64,000 bases of DNA from Dyella choica. Its GTDB lineage: Bacteria > Pseudomonadota > Gammaproteobacteria > Xanthomonadales > Rhodanobacteraceae. Below the pieces are notes generated by a model, which saw only the letters and a program-made list of their open reading frames with translations, was not told the DNA's origin and did no database searches. The translations under genes were made by a program, and so were the position numbers. The DNA lies in assembly GCF_003977665.1 (NCBI RefSeq), contig NZ_RYYV01000020.1:1-64000 (forward strand). Direction: 5' to 3'. Below, piece after piece: positions 17,443-25,738 of the stretch (the first letter of the stretch is position 1; the number at the start of each line of letters is the position of its first letter).

Positions 17443-18615
17443 TCAAAGACCATCCGGCACGGCGACAAAGGCGGAGCCGGCTTGTGCCGCGGCATTCCAA
17501 GACTGCCCGGTTATCACGCCGGCATCATTGATATCGTTGGCAGATACCAACGGATCGCTGTTGCCGCTCGTAACGCCGGGCCAATTGAGATTGACGATGC
17601 GGCCGTTGCGCCACACGACCGCGTTGCAGACATTCTTCGCATTGCAGGATTGGCCAACGACGGTGCCCTGGTCGTTGATGCCCAAGGCCTGGCTAGTGGC
17701 ATCGCCCGGCAGCGTACCCAGATCGCGCATGCCGCCGGCGGGCGTCCAAATGAAGGCGTGTGGATTGAAGTTCGCCGCACCTCCAGGGTTGGCGATATTC
17801 GCAAAACCTACGACGACGCCGCGCTCATTGATCGCCATGGGCGTGTTCCAGGCCGGCACGCCAAGATTTCCAAGGTCGATCGCCTGGCCGTTCTGCCATA
17901 GCACCGCATGGATCGCCGAATAGCGGCCTATGGCCTGATCGCACAAGCCCGAAATACCCACGACCTGCCCCCGATCGTTGATGGCTGTCGCCGCGCCGGA
18001 GGTATCGGTGCCGATCAGCGGCAAGGCGCGGATGTCGTCATTTCCCGGCCCCCATACCACGGGTTTGAACTGCAGCACCTGGCTGGAAGCAGGATCGCAG
18101 GTTGGGTCGTGCACCGTGTTTTCCGCCCACCCTACGGCCAGACCGAAATTGTTGGCGCCCGCGGCGAAACCATTGTTACCGCCAAGCGTAGGCAAGGCGT
18201 GCATATGACCCCACCGCCATACAAAGCCGCGGCAGCTGTGGCCGGTGGGGACCGGGAAGAAGAACGAGCAACTCCAGCTCTCGCCCAATGGGTCCATTTG
18301 CGCCGTTTCGGAGAACCCGACGAGCACGCCATAATCGTTTTTTACCGGCCAGTTGATGGCGCTATTGGCGCCACCCAACGTGCCCAGATCGAACGCCGAA
18401 CCGTTCAGCCAGATCGCGGCATGCACACGCTGGTCACCTGGCAAATTGGAAACGCCGCTGACCAGTCCAAATCGGTTGATGCTGGCGCCCGAACTGGACG
18501 ACCCGCCCAGCGAACCGAAGCTGCGGACCTGATAGTGGTCCGCCGCCGCTGCCGAGGGCAGCTCGGCTACCAGACCGGCCATGCAAACAGCGACCGTCAT
18601 CATAATGCGACGCAT
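17443..18615 (-). CDS. HAF-repeat secreted protein
   Basis: A 390-residue protein with an N-terminal signal peptide (MRRIMMTVAVCMAGLVAELP, cleavage near SAAAA). The rest is a series of degenerate repeats of about 45-50 residues, each containing an aliphatic/aromatic turn, AINxxGxVVG and xDLGTLGG, for example FDLGTLGGANSAIN, IDLGNLGVPAWNTPMAI, RDLGTLPGDATSQALGI. These are the HAF repeats of a beta-propeller-like surface or secreted family of unknown function. The ATG at 18615 has an AAGGAG site 6 bases upstream. Six cysteines suggest disulfides outside the cytoplasm. It is divergent from the MocR gene. Confidence 0.85.
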   Translation of the reverse strand: MRRIMMTVAVCMAGLVAELPSAAAADHYQVRSFGSLGGSSSSGASINRFGLVSGVSNLPGDQRVHAAIWLNGSAFDLGTLGGANSAINWPVKNDYGVLVGFSETAQMDPLGESWSCSFFFPVPTGHSCRGFVWRWGHMHALPTLGGNNGFAAGANNFGLAVGWAENTVHDPTCDPASSQVLQFKPVVWGPGNDDIRALPLIGTDTSGAATAINDRGQVVGISGLCDQAIGRYSAIHAVLWQNGQAIDLGNLGVPAWNTPMAINERGVVVGFANIANPGGAANFNPHAFIWTPAGGMRDLGTLPGDATSQALGINDQGTVVGQSCNAKNVCNAVVWRNGRIVNLNWPGVTSGNSDPLVSANDINDAGVITGQSWNAAAQAGSAFVAVPDGL

Positions 18616-18773
18616 GGGATGCTCCTTCATTCTCGTTGTGGGGCTGGAATCAGCTGTGGGGACGTACGGGCCAAGCGTGGTAGCTGGGACACGCGGCCAA
18701 AAGCGCCACTTTTGCGATGCCGGCTAGTCCGGTCCGCGCTATAGTCCTGGAGAAATCAGAGGCCACCTAAGCC

Positions 18774-20312
18774 ATGCGCCGCTGGGCATTGACCATTGCA
18801 CTCGATCCCCAACGCGAGCTGCCGATGTTTTTGCAGCTCGCCCGTGCGATTGCCGACGCCATTCGTGAGGGCCGCCTGCGTGCCGGGGAGCCGCTGCCCG
18901 GCACGCGCGAATTGGCCGAACAGCTCAGGGTGAACCGCAATACGATTGTGGCCGGCTACGAGGAACTGGCCGCGGAAGGCCTGGTGCAAACGCGCGTCGG
19001 CGGCGGCACTTTCGTTGCATCCCCTCTACCACCGGCTGCCCGCACCGCCGCGCCTGCGAAAGACACGTTGGCCGATGCCCCCACCTACGCCCTCGCCGGG
19101 TCCATCCACGCCACACCCACCGTCAAGCTGCCGCCACCGGGCAGCTTGATGATCGCGCACAGCCTGCCGGATACACGTCTGTTTCCAGCCGAAGCGCTGA
19201 CTCGCGCGTTCCGGCGCGCAATCCTGCAACGCGGCCGTTCACTGGTCGGATATGCCGATCCTTGCGGTCATCACCACTTGCGCGAAGAACTGGCAAGCAT
19301 GTTGCGCAGCACCCGCGCCCTGCCTGCCACGACCGACGGCCTGATGGTGACGCGCAGCCTCGAACAGGGCATCGACCTGGTGGCGCGGATGCTGCTCAAG
19401 CCCGGCGACGTCGTGGCGGTGGAAGCCTTCGGTTATCCGCCTGCATGGAGCGTGCTGCGCCTGGCCGGCGCGCAACTGATGCCCTTGCCCGTGGACGATC
19501 AGGGGCTGAATGTGGAGGCGCTGGAAGACGCTCTGAAGCATCAACGCATACGCGCCGTTTTCGTCACGCCGCACCATCAGTTCCCTACCACGTGCGTGAT
19601 GTCCCCGGCGCGCCGGGAACGGCTCGCCGCATTGGCCACGACGCATCGATTCGCCATCATCGAAGACGACTACGACCACGAATTCCATTACGCCGGCAAA
19701 CCCGTCCTGCCGATTGCCGCAGGACAGGACCGTGCGAATGTGATCTATATCGGCTCGCTTTCGAACCTGTTCGCGCCAGGCATCAGCACCGGCTTCATTC
19801 ATGCGCCGCCGGCCGTATTCGAGCATCTTGCCCATCTGCGCGCAGCCAGTGATCCACGCAGCGATGTAGCGATGGAGTGCGCGATCGCCGAACTGTTTGA
19901 AGACGGCGAGCTGTTGCGCCATATGCGACGCGTGCGCCGAACCTATGCCGCACGGCGCGACGCACTGGTTGCAGCCCTGCGGCGCCACCTCGGCAGCGCC
20001 TTGCATTTCCGGGTTCCCGAGGGCGGCATGGGGCTATGGGCGCACGTCGATGAAACCATCCCCATCGATCGCTGGAGCGAGCAAGGCGAACGCGCCGGCG
20101 TGCAGTTCTTCGGCGCCAGACGTTACGACTTCCATCAACGCGAACAGCCCTATTTACGGCTTGGATTCAGCTACCTCGACGAGAGTGAACTCGAAGAAGC
20201 CGTGCGACGCATGGCCCGCGCCTTGGCGGAGCTGAGCCCCCGTTCGCTCAAGCCGGCCCGCACCGCGCCCCCTGGCATGATCGGACATGATCCGCAGCCG
20301 GCTCGAACTTGA
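18774..20312 (+). CDS. MocR/PdxR-family regulator lacking the PLP lysine
   Basis: A 512-residue regulator with an N-terminal GntR winged helix (PMFLQLARAIADAIREGRL ... RNTIVAGYEELAAEGLVQT) joined by a linker to an aminotransferase-like domain. The fold-type-I landmarks are there: VTPHHQFPTTCV, IIEDDYDHEFHY and the C-terminal YLRLGFSYLDE. At the site that should read GTFSK-(x)-LRLGY, the sequence is GSLSNLFAPGIST: Asn331 replaces the Schiff-base lysine. PLP, if bound, would not be held covalently. The target is unknown. Divergent from the HAF gene, with 158 bp between starts. Confidence 0.88.
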   Translation: MRRWALTIALDPQRELPMFLQLARAIADAIREGRLRAGEPLPGTRELAEQLRVNRNTIVAGYEELAAEGLVQTRVGGGTFVASPLPPAARTAAPAKDTLADAPTYALAGSIHATPTVKLPPPGSLMIAHSLPDTRLFPAEALTRAFRRAILQRGRSLVGYADPCGHHHLREELASMLRSTRALPATTDGLMVTRSLEQGIDLVARMLLKPGDVVAVEAFGYPPAWSVLRLAGAQLMPLPVDDQGLNVEALEDALKHQRIRAVFVTPHHQFPTTCVMSPARRERLAALATTHRFAIIEDDYDHEFHYAGKPVLPIAAGQDRANVIYIGSLSNLFAPGISTGFIHAPPAVFEHLAHLRAASDPRSDVAMECAIAELFEDGELLRHMRRVRRTYAARRDALVAALRRHLGSALHFRVPEGGMGLWAHVDETIPIDRWSEQGERAGVQFFGARRYDFHQREQPYLRLGFSYLDESELEEAVRRMARALAELSPRSLKPARTAPPGMIGHDPQPART

Positions 20313-20418: not shown

Positions 20419-22542
20419 ATGAGTCTGAAAGCATCGATAAGGCTGGCTCTGGCCCTCACCGTCATAATGGGCGGCATGAGCCAAGCCCAAGACACCCCGG
20501 CGCCCGGCGCCGCCGCCGGCACGGAAGATCCTTATCTGTGGCTGGAAGACATCCACGGCGCACGAGCGATGGACTGGGTGAAGGCCCAGAACACCATCAC
20601 CCAGAAGCAGTTCGCCGACAACTCCAAATTCATGCACTCGCGCGACCGCATTCTGGAAGTGCTCGATTCCGACGCGCGTATTCCCTATGTGGAACGCCGC
20701 GGCGAATACCTCTACAACTTCTGGCAGGACAAGGCGCACCCGCGTGGCCTGTGGCGCCGAACCACGCTGGAGGAATACCGCAAGAGCGAACCGACGTGGG
20801 AAGTACTCCTGGATATCGATGCGCTGAACAAGGTCGAAGGCAAGCGCTGGGTGTTCAAGGCCAGCGATTGCCTGAAGCCCGACTACCAGCGTTGTCTGCT
20901 GCAGCTGTCGCCGGACGGCGGCGACGCGGTGGAGGTCCGTGAGTTCGATATCCCCACCAAATCGTTCGTGAAAGATGGCTTCCGGCTGCCGGCGGCCAAG
21001 ACCCAGGTTGGCTGGATCGATGACGACCACATCTATGTCGGCACCGATTTCGGTCCAGGCTCGATGACCACCTCCAGCTATCCACGCATTGCGAAGGTGT
21101 GGAAACGCGGCACACCGCTCAGTGCCGCCACCACCGTGTACGAAGGCAAGATGGAAGATCTATCGGTGAGCGCCTACCACGATCGCACGCCTGGTTTCGA
21201 ACGCGATTTCGTCAGCGTCACGCACGACTTCTTCCATAGCGACACGTATCAGCTCAAGGACGGCAAACTGATCCATCTGGAGGTGCCGACGGATGCCGCC
21301 AACGTGGATGCGCATCGTGAATGGCTGCTGGTGCAATTGCGCACGGCATGGACGGTCGAAGGCGTCACTTATCCGTCCGGCGCGCTGATCGCCGCCAAGT
21401 TCGATGATTTTCTGGCCGGCAAGCGCCAGTTCACCACGCTGTTCGTGCCGGACGAGCATACGGCCCTGTCGAGCTACTCCTGGACGCGTCATCACCTGAT
21501 CCTCGACATGATGGATGACGTGAAGAGCCGCCTCGACGTGCTTACGCCGAAAGCCGACGACCACTGGGCGCGCGAAGAGATGCCCGGCGCTCCGAAATTC
21601 AGCACGGTGCTGGTCGACACCGATCCGGACCATAGCGATGAATACTGGCTGATCGTCACCGGTTTCCTCACCCCTACCTCGCTGGAACGTGGTGTGTTGG
21701 GCGAAAGCCGGGCGCAGGTGCTCAAGCAAAGCCCGGCATTCTTCGACGCTTCGAAGTTCGAGGTGAGCCAGCACTTCGTCGCCTCCAAGGATGGCACTAA
21801 GGTGCCGTATTTCGAAATTGCACCGAAGAACATCAAGCTCGACGGCAGCCATCCCACCCTGCTGTATGGCTATGGCGGCTTCGAGGTATCGCTGCAGCCG
21901 TTCTACAGCGGCAGTATCGGCCGCTCGTGGCTGGAACGCGGCGGCGTGTATGTGATCGCCAATATCCGTGGCGGCGGCGAGTACGGTCCGCGTTGGCATC
22001 AGGCTGCACTGCAGGCGAACCGCCTGCGCGCGTACGAAGATTTCTCCGCGGTGGCGGACGACCTGATCAAGCGCGGCATGACTTCACCGGGACATCTGGG
22101 TGCCGAAGGCGGCAGCAACGGCGGCCTGCTGATGGGCAATATGCTTACCCTGTATCCGCAGCTGTTCGGTGCAATCGCCTGCGAGGTGCCGCTGCTGGAC
22201 ATGAAGCGCTACGTGCACCTTTCCGCCGGTGCTTCATGGATCGCCGAATACGGCAATCCGGACGATCCGAAGCAATGGGACTTCATCAAGACGTTCTCGC
22301 CTTATCAGAACGTCAAATCCGACGTTAGCTATCCCCCTGTGCTGTTCTACACCACCACCAGCGACGATCGCGTGGGCCCGGTGCAGGCGCGCAAGATGGC
22401 GGCAAGGATGGAGGGCATGGGCCACCGGAACGTGTGGTTCTTTGAGAACACCGAGGGCGGCCATGGAGCAGGTGCCGACAACAAGCAGTCGGCGTACATG
22501 CATGCGCTGGCCTATGAATTCCTGTGGGACAGGCTGAAGTAA
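20419..22542 (+). CDS. Prolyl oligopeptidase family S9A peptidase, secreted
   Basis: A 707-residue serine peptidase with an N-terminal signal peptide (MSLKASIRLALALTVIMGGM, cleavage near SQAQ), so periplasmic. Residues 35-420 are the propeller part starting EDPYLWLEDIHG. The catalytic alpha/beta-hydrolase domain follows. Ser566 is in EGGSNGGLLMGN, the acidic residue in TTSDDRVGP (649/650), and His682 in EGGHGAG. ANIRGGGEYGPRWHQAAL is the family hallmark. It should cut peptides after proline. An AAGGAG site precedes the ATG at 20419. It is monocistronic and ends in a 15-bp hairpin. Confidence 0.95.
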   Translation: MSLKASIRLALALTVIMGGMSQAQDTPAPGAAAGTEDPYLWLEDIHGARAMDWVKAQNTITQKQFADNSKFMHSRDRILEVLDSDARIPYVERRGEYLYNFWQDKAHPRGLWRRTTLEEYRKSEPTWEVLLDIDALNKVEGKRWVFKASDCLKPDYQRCLLQLSPDGGDAVEVREFDIPTKSFVKDGFRLPAAKTQVGWIDDDHIYVGTDFGPGSMTTSSYPRIAKVWKRGTPLSAATTVYEGKMEDLSVSAYHDRTPGFERDFVSVTHDFFHSDTYQLKDGKLIHLEVPTDAANVDAHREWLLVQLRTAWTVEGVTYPSGALIAAKFDDFLAGKRQFTTLFVPDEHTALSSYSWTRHHLILDMMDDVKSRLDVLTPKADDHWAREEMPGAPKFSTVLVDTDPDHSDEYWLIVTGFLTPTSLERGVLGESRAQVLKQSPAFFDASKFEVSQHFVASKDGTKVPYFEIAPKNIKLDGSHPTLLYGYGGFEVSLQPFYSGSIGRSWLERGGVYVIANIRGGGEYGPRWHQAALQANRLRAYEDFSAVADDLIKRGMTSPGHLGAEGGSNGGLLMGNMLTLYPQLFGAIACEVPLLDMKRYVHLSAGASWIAEYGNPDDPKQWDFIKTFSPYQNVKSDVSYPPVLFYTTTSDDRVGPVQARKMAARMEGMGHRNVWFFENTEGGHGAGADNKQSAYMHALAYEFLWDRLK

Positions 22543-22586: not shown

Positions 22587-22638
22587 GGTTGCGACAAGGT
22601 TGAAACACTCTGCCCATGCCCGGGCTAAAATCGCCCGC

Positions 22639-23496
22639 ATGAAATCGCACCTCCCGATACGACCCGAACTGCGCGAATGGATCCTCACCACAACGCGTGC
22701 CGGCCACAGCGTCGACACCGTGCTGAAGATGATGCAGGACACCGGCTATGACCCACGGCAAAGCCGCGGCATCGTCGCCTCCGTGCTGAACATGCCGATT
22801 TCGGCACTCGATGCGCACACCCAGCCCTCCCCGCCGAAAAACCAGGGCCGTCGCACACGGCATCCGGAAGCGCCGCAGGTGGTAGTCAACGGCCACACCG
22901 TCCATGTCGGACTCAGCATGGATTCACCCGCGCTGCGTTTGCTAAACGATTTTCTTTCCGCCGAGGAGTGCGACGCGCTGATCGAACAGGCCAGGCCACG
23001 CCTGCAACGCGCCAGGACCGTCGACACTTCGGGCAAGCAGCAGCTCGATGCGCGCCGCACCAGCGAAGGCATGTTTTTCGCGATCAACGAAACACCGCTG
23101 ATCCAGCGCATCGAACAACGCATCGCAGGCATGCTGAGCATCCCGGTCGATCATGGCGAAGGCCTGCAGGTGCTGCACTACCTCCCCGGCCAGCAGTACG
23201 AACCGCATTACGATTGGTTCAATCCCGATCAGGCCGGGTTCGCCGCGATCACCGCCAGGGGCGGCCAGCGCATTGCCAGCCTGGTGATGTACCTGAATAC
23301 GCCCGAGGCCGGCGGCGGCACGGCGTTTCCACAAGTAGGGCTAACCGTGACGGCACTGCGCGGCGCGGCCGTCTATTTCGCCTATGACACGGGCGACGAG
23401 GCGTCACTGCACGCGGGACTGCCGGTGCAGCAAGGCGAAAAGTGGATAGCCACCAAGTGGTTGCGCGAGCGGCCGTTCCAGAAGGCCTTGCGCTGA
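22639..23496 (+). CDS. 2OG-Fe(II) dioxygenase, prolyl 4-hydroxylase type
   Basis: A 285-residue protein. The C-terminal 190 residues form the double-stranded beta-helix of prolyl 4-hydroxylases, using 2-oxoglutarate, O2 and Fe(II). The iron ligands are visible as HYD in YEPHYDWFNPD and the distal His in ASLHAGLPVQQGEKWIATKW, with the 2-oxoglutarate-binding Lys following. The first 90 residues are an N-terminal extension ending in a proline/lysine-rich linker. The start at ATG 22639 has no clear Shine-Dalgarno. The target residue is unknown. It lies next to a proline-specific peptidase gene, which may be coincidence. Confidence 0.9.
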   Translation: MKSHLPIRPELREWILTTTRAGHSVDTVLKMMQDTGYDPRQSRGIVASVLNMPISALDAHTQPSPPKNQGRRTRHPEAPQVVVNGHTVHVGLSMDSPALRLLNDFLSAEECDALIEQARPRLQRARTVDTSGKQQLDARRTSEGMFFAINETPLIQRIEQRIAGMLSIPVDHGEGLQVLHYLPGQQYEPHYDWFNPDQAGFAAITARGGQRIASLVMYLNTPEAGGGTAFPQVGLTVTALRGAAVYFAYDTGDEASLHAGLPVQQGEKWIATKWLRERPFQKALR

Positions 23497-24304: not shown

Positions 24305-25738
24305 GTGTATTTAGAACTTGACGGCCAAGGTCCGCTTTACGATCAGCTGACGCGCGCATTGAAAACTTCCATCCTCGACGGCCGTATCACGGCGGGCACG
24401 CAATTGCCGCCCACGCGCGAGCTGGCGCACGAGCTGGAGATTTCACGCACCACAGTGTTGGCCGCTTACGAGCAACTGCGCGCAGAAGGCTTCATCGACG
24501 GCCGGGTCGGCTCGGGCAGCTTCGTCAGCCAGCTGCAAGCCAGGCCGCTGGCGCATCACGTCCACACCAGCATTCCAGCGCCCTCCCGTTACGTGCAACG
24601 CGCCCGCGCGGCGTGCAATTGGGACATCCCGCGGCTCCACCGCGGCTTGCGCTACAACCTGGCGTATGGTTACCCGATGATCAACCCCACGCTCAACAAT
24701 GCGTGGGGGCGGGAGCTCGCGCGAGCGGCGGTGTACACTCAGCTCAACGCCATCGAAGCCGCTGGATTGGGAGCGTTGCGCAAGCAGACCTGCGATTACC
24801 TGGCGCGCCGCCGTGGTGTGCAAGCGCAACCTGACGACGTGCTGATCGTCAGCGGCACCCAGCAGGCGATCAATCTGACCGCGCGCGTACTGCTGAACGA
24901 AGGCGATCGCGTGGTGCTGGAAGAGCCGCACTACTTCCTGGCCCATCAGGCGCTGGTCGCGCACGGTGCCGATGTAGTTGCGGTGCGCACGGATGAGCAC
25001 GGCCTGGTCTGTGAAGAGCTTCCCTCGCAAGCGCCGCGCCTGGTTTATGTGACGCCTTCGCATCATTTTCCTTCCGGCGCCGTGCTTTCCATGCAACGCC
25101 GGCTTGATCTGCTGCATTACGCCGAGCAGCACCAATGCTGGATCCTGGAAGACGATTACGACGGCGAATTCCGCTACGACTCCCATCCGCTGGCGGCACT
25201 ACGCTCGCTCGATGAACAAGACCGCGTGATCTATGTGGGCACCTTCTCCAAGGTGATGTTCGGCGGGTTGCGCCTCGCTTACATGGTGATGCCCGCCGCG
25301 CTGCGTTCGGACTTTCTCAATGCCAAATACCTTGGCGACATGGCCAGTCCGGTGATCGAACAGGCCGCCTTGGCCCGATTCATGGAGAACGGCGGCTTCG
25401 AGCGGCATCTGCGCCTGGCGCGTAAGGAGCTGAAGGCGCGCCGCGAAGCGCTGATCGCCGGATTGAAGGAGCATGCGGGTGACCGTGTCGAGATCGACGA
25501 TACGCCCGCCGGCATGCATATGGTGGCGTGGTTGCGCGACTATGACGCGCCACGCCGAGCGGCGCTGGTCGACTATGCCCATGAGCACGGCCTGGGCCTT
25601 CATCCGATGAGCCCGCTGTATTTGCATGCGCCGGATCGCCAGGGCCTGCTGCTGGGCTATTGCGGTCTCTCGGTAAACGAGTTGCGGGAGGCTATGCGCC
25701 TGTTCGGGCAGTGCCTGGATCATATGGAACGCACCTGA
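24305..25738 (+). CDS. MocR/PdxR-family transcriptional regulator
   Basis: A 477-residue regulator with an N-terminal GntR winged helix (GPLYDQLTRALKTSILDGRI ... SRTTVLAAYEQLRAEGFIDG) and a fold-type-I aminotransferase domain. In contrast to the other MocR gene in this window, the PLP site is complete: K316 in VGTFSKVMFGGLRLAYMV, with WILEDDYDGEF before it. The start is taken as GTG 24305 because GGGAGGG lies 7 bases upstream. The alternative is TTG 24290. It may respond to PLP or an amine/amino acid. The next gene, ppa, begins 118 bp downstream and need not be a target. Confidence 0.88.
   Translation: MYLELDGQGPLYDQLTRALKTSILDGRITAGTQLPPTRELAHELEISRTTVLAAYEQLRAEGFIDGRVGSGSFVSQLQARPLAHHVHTSIPAPSRYVQRARAACNWDIPRLHRGLRYNLAYGYPMINPTLNNAWGRELARAAVYTQLNAIEAAGLGALRKQTCDYLARRRGVQAQPDDVLIVSGTQQAINLTARVLLNEGDRVVLEEPHYFLAHQALVAHGADVVAVRTDEHGLVCEELPSQAPRLVYVTPSHHFPSGAVLSMQRRLDLLHYAEQHQCWILEDDYDGEFRYDSHPLAALRSLDEQDRVIYVGTFSKVMFGGLRLAYMVMPAALRSDFLNAKYLGDMASPVIEQAALARFMENGGFERHLRLARKELKARREALIAGLKEHAGDRVEIDDTPAGMHMVAWLRDYDAPRRAALVDYAHEHGLGLHPMSPLYLHAPDRQGLLLGYCGLSVNELREAMRLFGQCLDHMERT

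Follow-up and report, generated by a model that had tools for sequence, protein, structure and literature searches.

In the available text of PMC6917764, Lys312 of the MocR-type regulator GabR (Bacillus subtilis) forms the internal aldimine with PLP and Arg319 contacts the PLP phosphate, and the 2019 classification, in the part available (PMC6677901), describes Lys312 and Asp279 as conserved across all MocR clusters. For a second member of the subfamily, PdxR, the accessible text of PMC5320631 reports that the apo form activates the target and represses its own gene, with PLP as an anti-activator. The same text describes the PdxW group of Suvorova and Rodionov, with regulons containing PNPOx-like (pyridoxamine-5'-phosphate-oxidase-like) genes and acetyltransferases, and gives CTGGACYTAA as the published half-site of TauR. 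A MocR without the lysine is described as a laboratory mutant in the available text of PMC8739950: EnuR Lys302His cannot take up PLP, still folds and dimerises, and acts as a constitutive repressor. We found no description of a natural MocR lacking this lysine in the titles and abstract openings searched, mostly those of papers free of subscription.

Here we describe a MocR-type regulator, named MocR_N in this work, that carries Asn at the position of the lysine. It is encoded in the window (the whole stretch of 64,000 nucleotides that was analysed) next to a divergent HAF-repeat gene:

17443..18630, minus strand: HAF-repeat gene, divergent from MocR_N and its predicted main target (TIGR02913, conserved Cys, propeller model, co-occurrence)
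18774..20312, plus strand: MocR_N, MocR-type regulator without the PLP lysine, 512 aa (Pfam GntR, Aminotran_1_2)
19764..19766, plus strand: codon 331, AAC (Asn), which profile alignment places at GabR Lys312 (Schiff-base lysine)

A MocR regulator with Asn in place of the PLP lysine

MocR_N has the architecture of the MocR subfamily, an N-terminal GntR winged helix-turn-helix (Pfam GntR, 59.2 bits) joined to a fold-type-I aminotransferase-like domain (Aminotran_1_2, 84 bits). With its AF2 model (pLDDT 86), the best Foldseek match is GabR, over the full length of the fold; PdxR is also matched (7pq9, VIA Z 42.2, rmsd 2.0 over 360 residues). Throughout, GabR residues are numbered as in the papers and mapped onto MocR_N via profile alignment. 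The open reading frame is intact and, as the initial annotation had read from the sequence alone, Asn331 sits within GSLSNLFAPGIST of a protein that retains EDDYD (297-301) and the C-terminal RLGFS (with R462). The second MocR gene of the window (24305-25738), whose reading frame we followed from 24305, keeps GTFSK and its lysine, K316, again as proposed.

From this second gene it had been argued that the missing lysine does not characterise the genome as a whole. This holds for the own-genome paralogues L002-L006, all of which have Lys (L007 and L008 were left out), and needs qualification among relatives: 80 other MocR paralogues, chosen from the listed matches in relatives' genomes and not at random, divide into 73 with Lys and seven with Arg (L252, L253, L254, L256, L259, L260 and L262), so that loss of the lysine is not unique to MocR_N. 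Four of these seven proteins retain the phosphate Arg and three have Gln instead; they are another Lys-less type.

The non-lysine proteins form one clade under purifying selection

The search covered 61 relatives' genomes, with the own genome among them, 233 Rhodanobacteraceae genomes and the GTDB contig collection. A MocR_N orthologue is present in 28 of the 233 family genomes. Dropping copies identical over residues 6-250 reduced the orthologue rows from 49 to 28, which share at least 58% identity with MocR_N and all match Rhodanobacteraceae genomes; named hosts are Dyella, Rhodanobacter, Rudaea and Dokdonella, together with MAGs, some of them carrying broader names. At residue 331, 26 of the 28 have Asn, one has Gly (L018) and one has Ser (L132), and the codon in all 49 rows, copies included, is AAC (40), AAT (6), AGC for Ser (2) or GGC for Gly (1). 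The initial annotation had considered that N331 might be a singleton or a sequencing error at 19764-19766; both are ruled out by 28 orthologous rows without Lys, with Asn written by two codons. The others among the best 80 GTDB loci, which we call the sisters, have Lys in 59 of 59 rows; they are 41-53% identical and belong mostly to Myxococcota, also to Gemmatimonadota and others.

In a tree computed by a quick method without the changed columns, and with seven paralogues as outgroup, all 25 full-length rows without Lys group together as one clade (SH-aLRT 99), with a single change of state. We speak of a loss because Lys is the state in all 44 other tree rows; the root is not firm, since one of the seven outgroup paralogues fell among the sisters. 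Furthermore, NG86 dN/dS ratios, derived from the dN and dS values, are 0.07-0.15 over 11 chosen MocR_N pairs and 0.06-0.11 when only the aminotransferase domain is counted. Such low ratios indicate purifying selection on the gene and rule out a pseudogene. One copy with Ser331 (L132/L055), from a fragmented MAG, is out of frame past query residue 419, which may be decay or an assembly error.

The phosphate side of the PLP socket is replaced and the ring side retained

Two further sites in the pocket, which the initial annotation did not mention, differ between the clade and the sisters:

19356..19364, plus strand: codons 195-197 (Ser-Leu-Glu here), the GSQ loop in the sisters
19785..19787, plus strand: codon 338, Ser in MocR_N, at the position of GabR Arg319 (PLP phosphate); all 59 sisters have Arg and none of the 28 clade rows does

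A G-S/T-Q (GSQ/GTQ) loop binds phosphate in fold-type-I enzymes, and we take the GSQ loop at 195-197 to be this phosphate-binding loop. In alignment A1 (25 of the 28 clade rows and 37 of the 59 sister rows, with L131-L133 and 22 sister rows omitted), six columns are at least 95% conserved in the sisters and at most 10% in the clade, namely G195, S196, Q197, D318, K331 and R338. The loop reads S-(I/L/V)-E in all 27 clade rows with residues there, with Glu in every one, and residue 338 is S in 16, G in nine, C in two and H in one of the 28 clade rows. The clade thus lacks three features of PLP-dependent MocRs, namely the lysine of the Schiff base, the Arg at the phosphate and the GSQ loop. EnuR Lys302His, by comparison, is an engineered single change, whereas MocR_N belongs to a natural clade in which the phosphate cup has been replaced as well.

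The other half of the pocket is preserved. The Asp that faces the pyridine nitrogen is present as D298 in all 25 clade rows, where Y221, F270, Y300 and R462 are equally invariant. Profile alignment pairs Y221, F270, D298 and Y300 with GabR Tyr205, Phe250, Asp279 and Tyr281, so that relative to GabR the aromatic cage and the Asp279 equivalent are kept while the equivalents of Lys312 and Arg319 are lost; R462 is presumably the carboxylate-binding Arg of aminotransferases. At the position of GabR Arg207, all 25 clade rows have Pro223, as do 86% of the 37 sister rows. In the former phosphate cup new residues have become fixed (S195, E197 and Q198 in 25 of 25 clade rows, N331 in 24 of 25), and across the domain 63 of the 74 columns that are at least 95% conserved in sisters have an unchanged residue in 90% or more of the clade rows. 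Collectively, the PLP socket appears to have been dismantled under purifying selection, and MocR_N appears to be free of PLP.

These replacements also bear on the classification of the protein. MocR_N scores 355 bits against the NCBIfam equivalog NF052282 (PdxR; cut-off 320), and five of the five clade members tested pass it, so they are likely annotated as PLP-sensing PdxR. With PdxR of Bacillus clausii, MocR_N does share architecture, divergon layout and fold. It differs in lacking the Schiff-base Lys, phosphate Arg and GSQ loop, and in having a HAF gene as neighbour rather than a B6 gene. The PdxR label is probably wrong for the clade, a case of database over-annotation.

A probably exported HAF-repeat protein is the probable partner

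The start of the HAF reading frame is probably at 18615, with AAGGAG just upstream, and not at the first ATG at 18630. The protein matches TIGR02913 with 106.9 bits in three stretches (cut-off 22.65). Its N-terminus resembles a signal peptide and several Cys are invariant in 28 rows; from its sequence it is probably exported. The model (pLDDT 85) is a beta-propeller, for which Foldseek gave weak matches, the best to CylK (3e-7) followed by lectin propellers among others; VIA-align returned Z 28.4 with CylK (rmsd 4.0 over 304 residues) and Z 22.3 with virginiamycin B lyase (rmsd 2.5 over 240 residues). We accordingly regard the fold as a predicted beta-propeller. Among the papers listed by a literature search on HAF proteins or Dyella, none contains 'HAF repeat'.

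HAF orthologues at E<=1e-87, a cut-off placed at the gap seen in the results (next match 7e-66), occur in 28 of the 233 family genomes, exactly those 28 that have MocR_N. At E<=1e-20 there are matches in 37 of the 233, nine of which are without MocR_N and have only weaker relatives. In six genera or more (g1, g41, g14, g19, g6 and g18), some genomes have the HAF/MocR_N pair and others have neither orthologue. Part of this co-occurrence is due to linkage: HAF is divergent from the regulator in 24 of 26 clade rows and in 0 of 57 sister rows (two rows of the clade and two of the sisters, with fewer than 700 bases upstream, were dropped). The POP and P4H neighbours on the other side (20419-22542 and 22600-23496) were rejected as constant partners, being absent beside the regulator in L043, L044, L048, L050 and L058, which keep HAF.

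The sisters have another neighbour. In 39 of the 57 sister rows the divergent gene is PNPOx-like, two more have it in the other orientation and 16 have none; this count used a model built from ten neighbours picked by eye, all ten of which contain PF12900. Several of the PNPOx-like genes are fused to a GNAT domain. No PNPOx-like neighbour was recognised for the sisters L056 and L066. A PNPOx-like divergent neighbour is found in 0 of 26 clade rows. The sisters thus resemble the PdxW-type MocRs in the available description (PMC5320631), a likeness of gene neighbourhood. They keep Lys, Arg and GSQ and mostly face PNPOx-like genes, and MocR_N does neither.

A conserved predicted operator follows the HAF gene

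The intergenic region contains two candidate elements:

18706..18733, no strand assigned: predicted operator CCACTTTTGCGATGCCGGCTAGTCCGGT between the divergent genes, from conservation across most of the clade
18740..18745, plus strand: TATAGT, probable -10 element of the MocR_N gene, picked by eye, six bases downstream of the operator

Allowing up to 3 mismatches over 22 specified bases, the operator pattern gave 24 sites in 23 of the 28 MocR_N genomes; 23 of these sites immediately precede HAF. At the same tolerance it gave no match in 28 genomes of the family that lack MocR_N. The remaining site, in G061 (L165 around 1501, 2 mismatches), is upstream of an AraC-type reading frame and may be chance. 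The reversed pattern, used as a control, matched 8 times in the 28 MocR_N genomes and 11 times in 28 genomes without MocR_N, and an isolated match with 3 mismatches is therefore of chance grade; the argument for the operator is that all true matches but one are placed at HAF, which is beyond chance. Five genomes without a match (G107, G112, G129, G130 and G064) have a diverged site in the same place, with 6-8 mismatches in the 27 bases of a longer pattern, so weaker additional targets would also escape a 3-mismatch search.

Two Dokdonella genomes separate the site from the regulator gene. In G087 and G088, HAF lies on another contig from the regulator and keeps the operator (1 and 2 mismatches), while upstream of the regulator itself the best matches have 10 and 7 mismatches of 22; thus, the site follows HAF. 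Furthermore, the two weaker HAF relatives examined from genomes without MocR_N (L162 and L163) have no operator (12 mismatches).

The sisters share an operator architecture with the clade. The pattern CCRSTT-n12-CTRGNCCRGT, composed post hoc after viewing the sister upstream matches, is present within 1 mismatch in 21 of 54 sister rows, against 0 of 1080 Markov resamples, and in 21 of 26 clade rows. This comparison covered 54 of the 59 sister and 26 of the 28 clade rows, leaving out L131 and L133 (no start) and the sister rows starting past query residue 10 or having little upstream sequence. For the clade's own pattern, best matches in sisters average 8.6 mismatches of 22. The CTRGNCCRGT half resembles the TauR half-site.

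Between the end of the operator half CTAGTCCGGT and TATAGT lie 6 bases, so that a protein bound there would probably obstruct the promoter of the regulator gene. The HAF start is farther from the operator, at 18615 or 18630, which is compatible with activation. A scan of the intergenic region for consensus promoters found none. By eye, most relatives have a TATAGT/TACAAT-like element 6-7 bases before the regulator ATG, as if the mRNA were leaderless; the gap from this element to the regulator ATG is longer in the window (18733-18774) than in the relatives.

Discussion

Taken together, the lysine-to-Asn change appears to be a real, clade-wide feature of a MocR that is seemingly cofactor-less and has a conserved operator and a swapped target. 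Loss of the anchors in one clade, purifying selection, the conserved operator, HAF co-occurrence and the change of neighbour are features of the sequences; the absence of PLP, DNA binding, autoregulation, the sign of regulation and the ligand of MocR_N are predicted. The common core of the explanation, that MocR_N holds no PLP and regulates HAF, we consider likely. We propose that a PdxW/PdxR-like MocR ancestor lost the PLP anchors in one lineage, and that the aminotransferase-like domain would still fold, presumably dimerise and hold no PLP. MocR_N would bind the retained two-half-site operator in the intergenic region, this site having been kept while the target switched from a B6 gene to the HAF gene, and would mainly serve the divergent HAF gene and probably also control its own promoter. 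Given the precedents of apo-PdxR (PMC5320631) and EnuR Lys302His (PMC8739950), each in the text available, a MocR free of PLP can function as a regulator.

The initial annotation had suggested that MocR_N senses a different ligand, and of the mechanisms considered we favour this one: a socket refitted for another, non-phosphorylated small ligand, still using the aromatic/Asp298/Arg462 side, is a reading on which our judgement is about evenly balanced. The fixed residues S195, E197, Q198 and N331 favour a ligand over a permanently locked form. The full scenario, in which the MocR fold has become a cofactor-free one-component sensor with its socket refitted (Ser195, Glu197, Asn331) for another ligand, an inherited operator and the exported HAF beta-propeller as new target, is tentative and falls slightly below that balance.

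Within the same core, MocR_N may instead be held permanently in the apo state and activate HAF constitutively, as apo-PdxR does its target, or repress it constitutively, in the manner of the EnuR mutant, with no small-molecule input. We regard this as possible and clearly less probable than a refitted socket. Both precedents speak for it, and so does the finding that conservation of the pocket as a set is not significantly higher than that of random positions of the aminotransferase-like domain (0.065), a result that also tempers the proposal of a different ligand; an unused pocket, on the other hand, would be expected to drift, whereas here the emptied socket has acquired fixed new residues and its ring side does not vary.

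A different reading concerns the partner. Regulator and HAF gene could co-occur through joint travel as neighbours, with the operator serving autoregulation alone, as the divergent adjacency in nearly all clade rows would allow. The unlinked Dokdonella pairs, in which the site stands at HAF and the regulator's promoter is without a good one, make this improbable, as do the two HAF relatives examined from genomes without MocR_N, which lack the site.

Returning to the ligand, the initial annotation had offered as a second option that MocR_N binds PLP (or PMP) non-covalently, with no Schiff base. The retained Asp298, whose GabR counterpart meets the pyridine nitrogen, and the cage of Tyr221, Tyr300 and Phe270 would fit such a sensor. 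Against this, Arg338 is lost in every clade row, the GSQ loop has given way to one with an invariant Glu, and the neighbour is no longer a gene of PLP metabolism, so that from the pocket residues non-covalent binding is unlikely, somewhat more so than joint travel. A decaying gene or a sequencing error, of which the single out-of-frame Ser331 copy might be a sign, is a far more distant prospect in view of the 28 orthologous rows, their low dN/dS and two Asn codons.

The preferred reading, a cofactor-free regulator of HAF, has several consequences. The NCBI PdxR label is suggested to cover proteins that probably cannot sense PLP, and MocR_N offers a regulator, and thus a genetic handle, for a HAF-repeat protein. 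The clade is also a natural test of the role of the aminotransferase-like domain without PLP. MocRs are defined by PLP chemistry and, if the reading is true, a natural clade without the anchors would show cleanly how a regulator can lose its cofactor and be rewired, with DNA recognition retained and both input and output altered.
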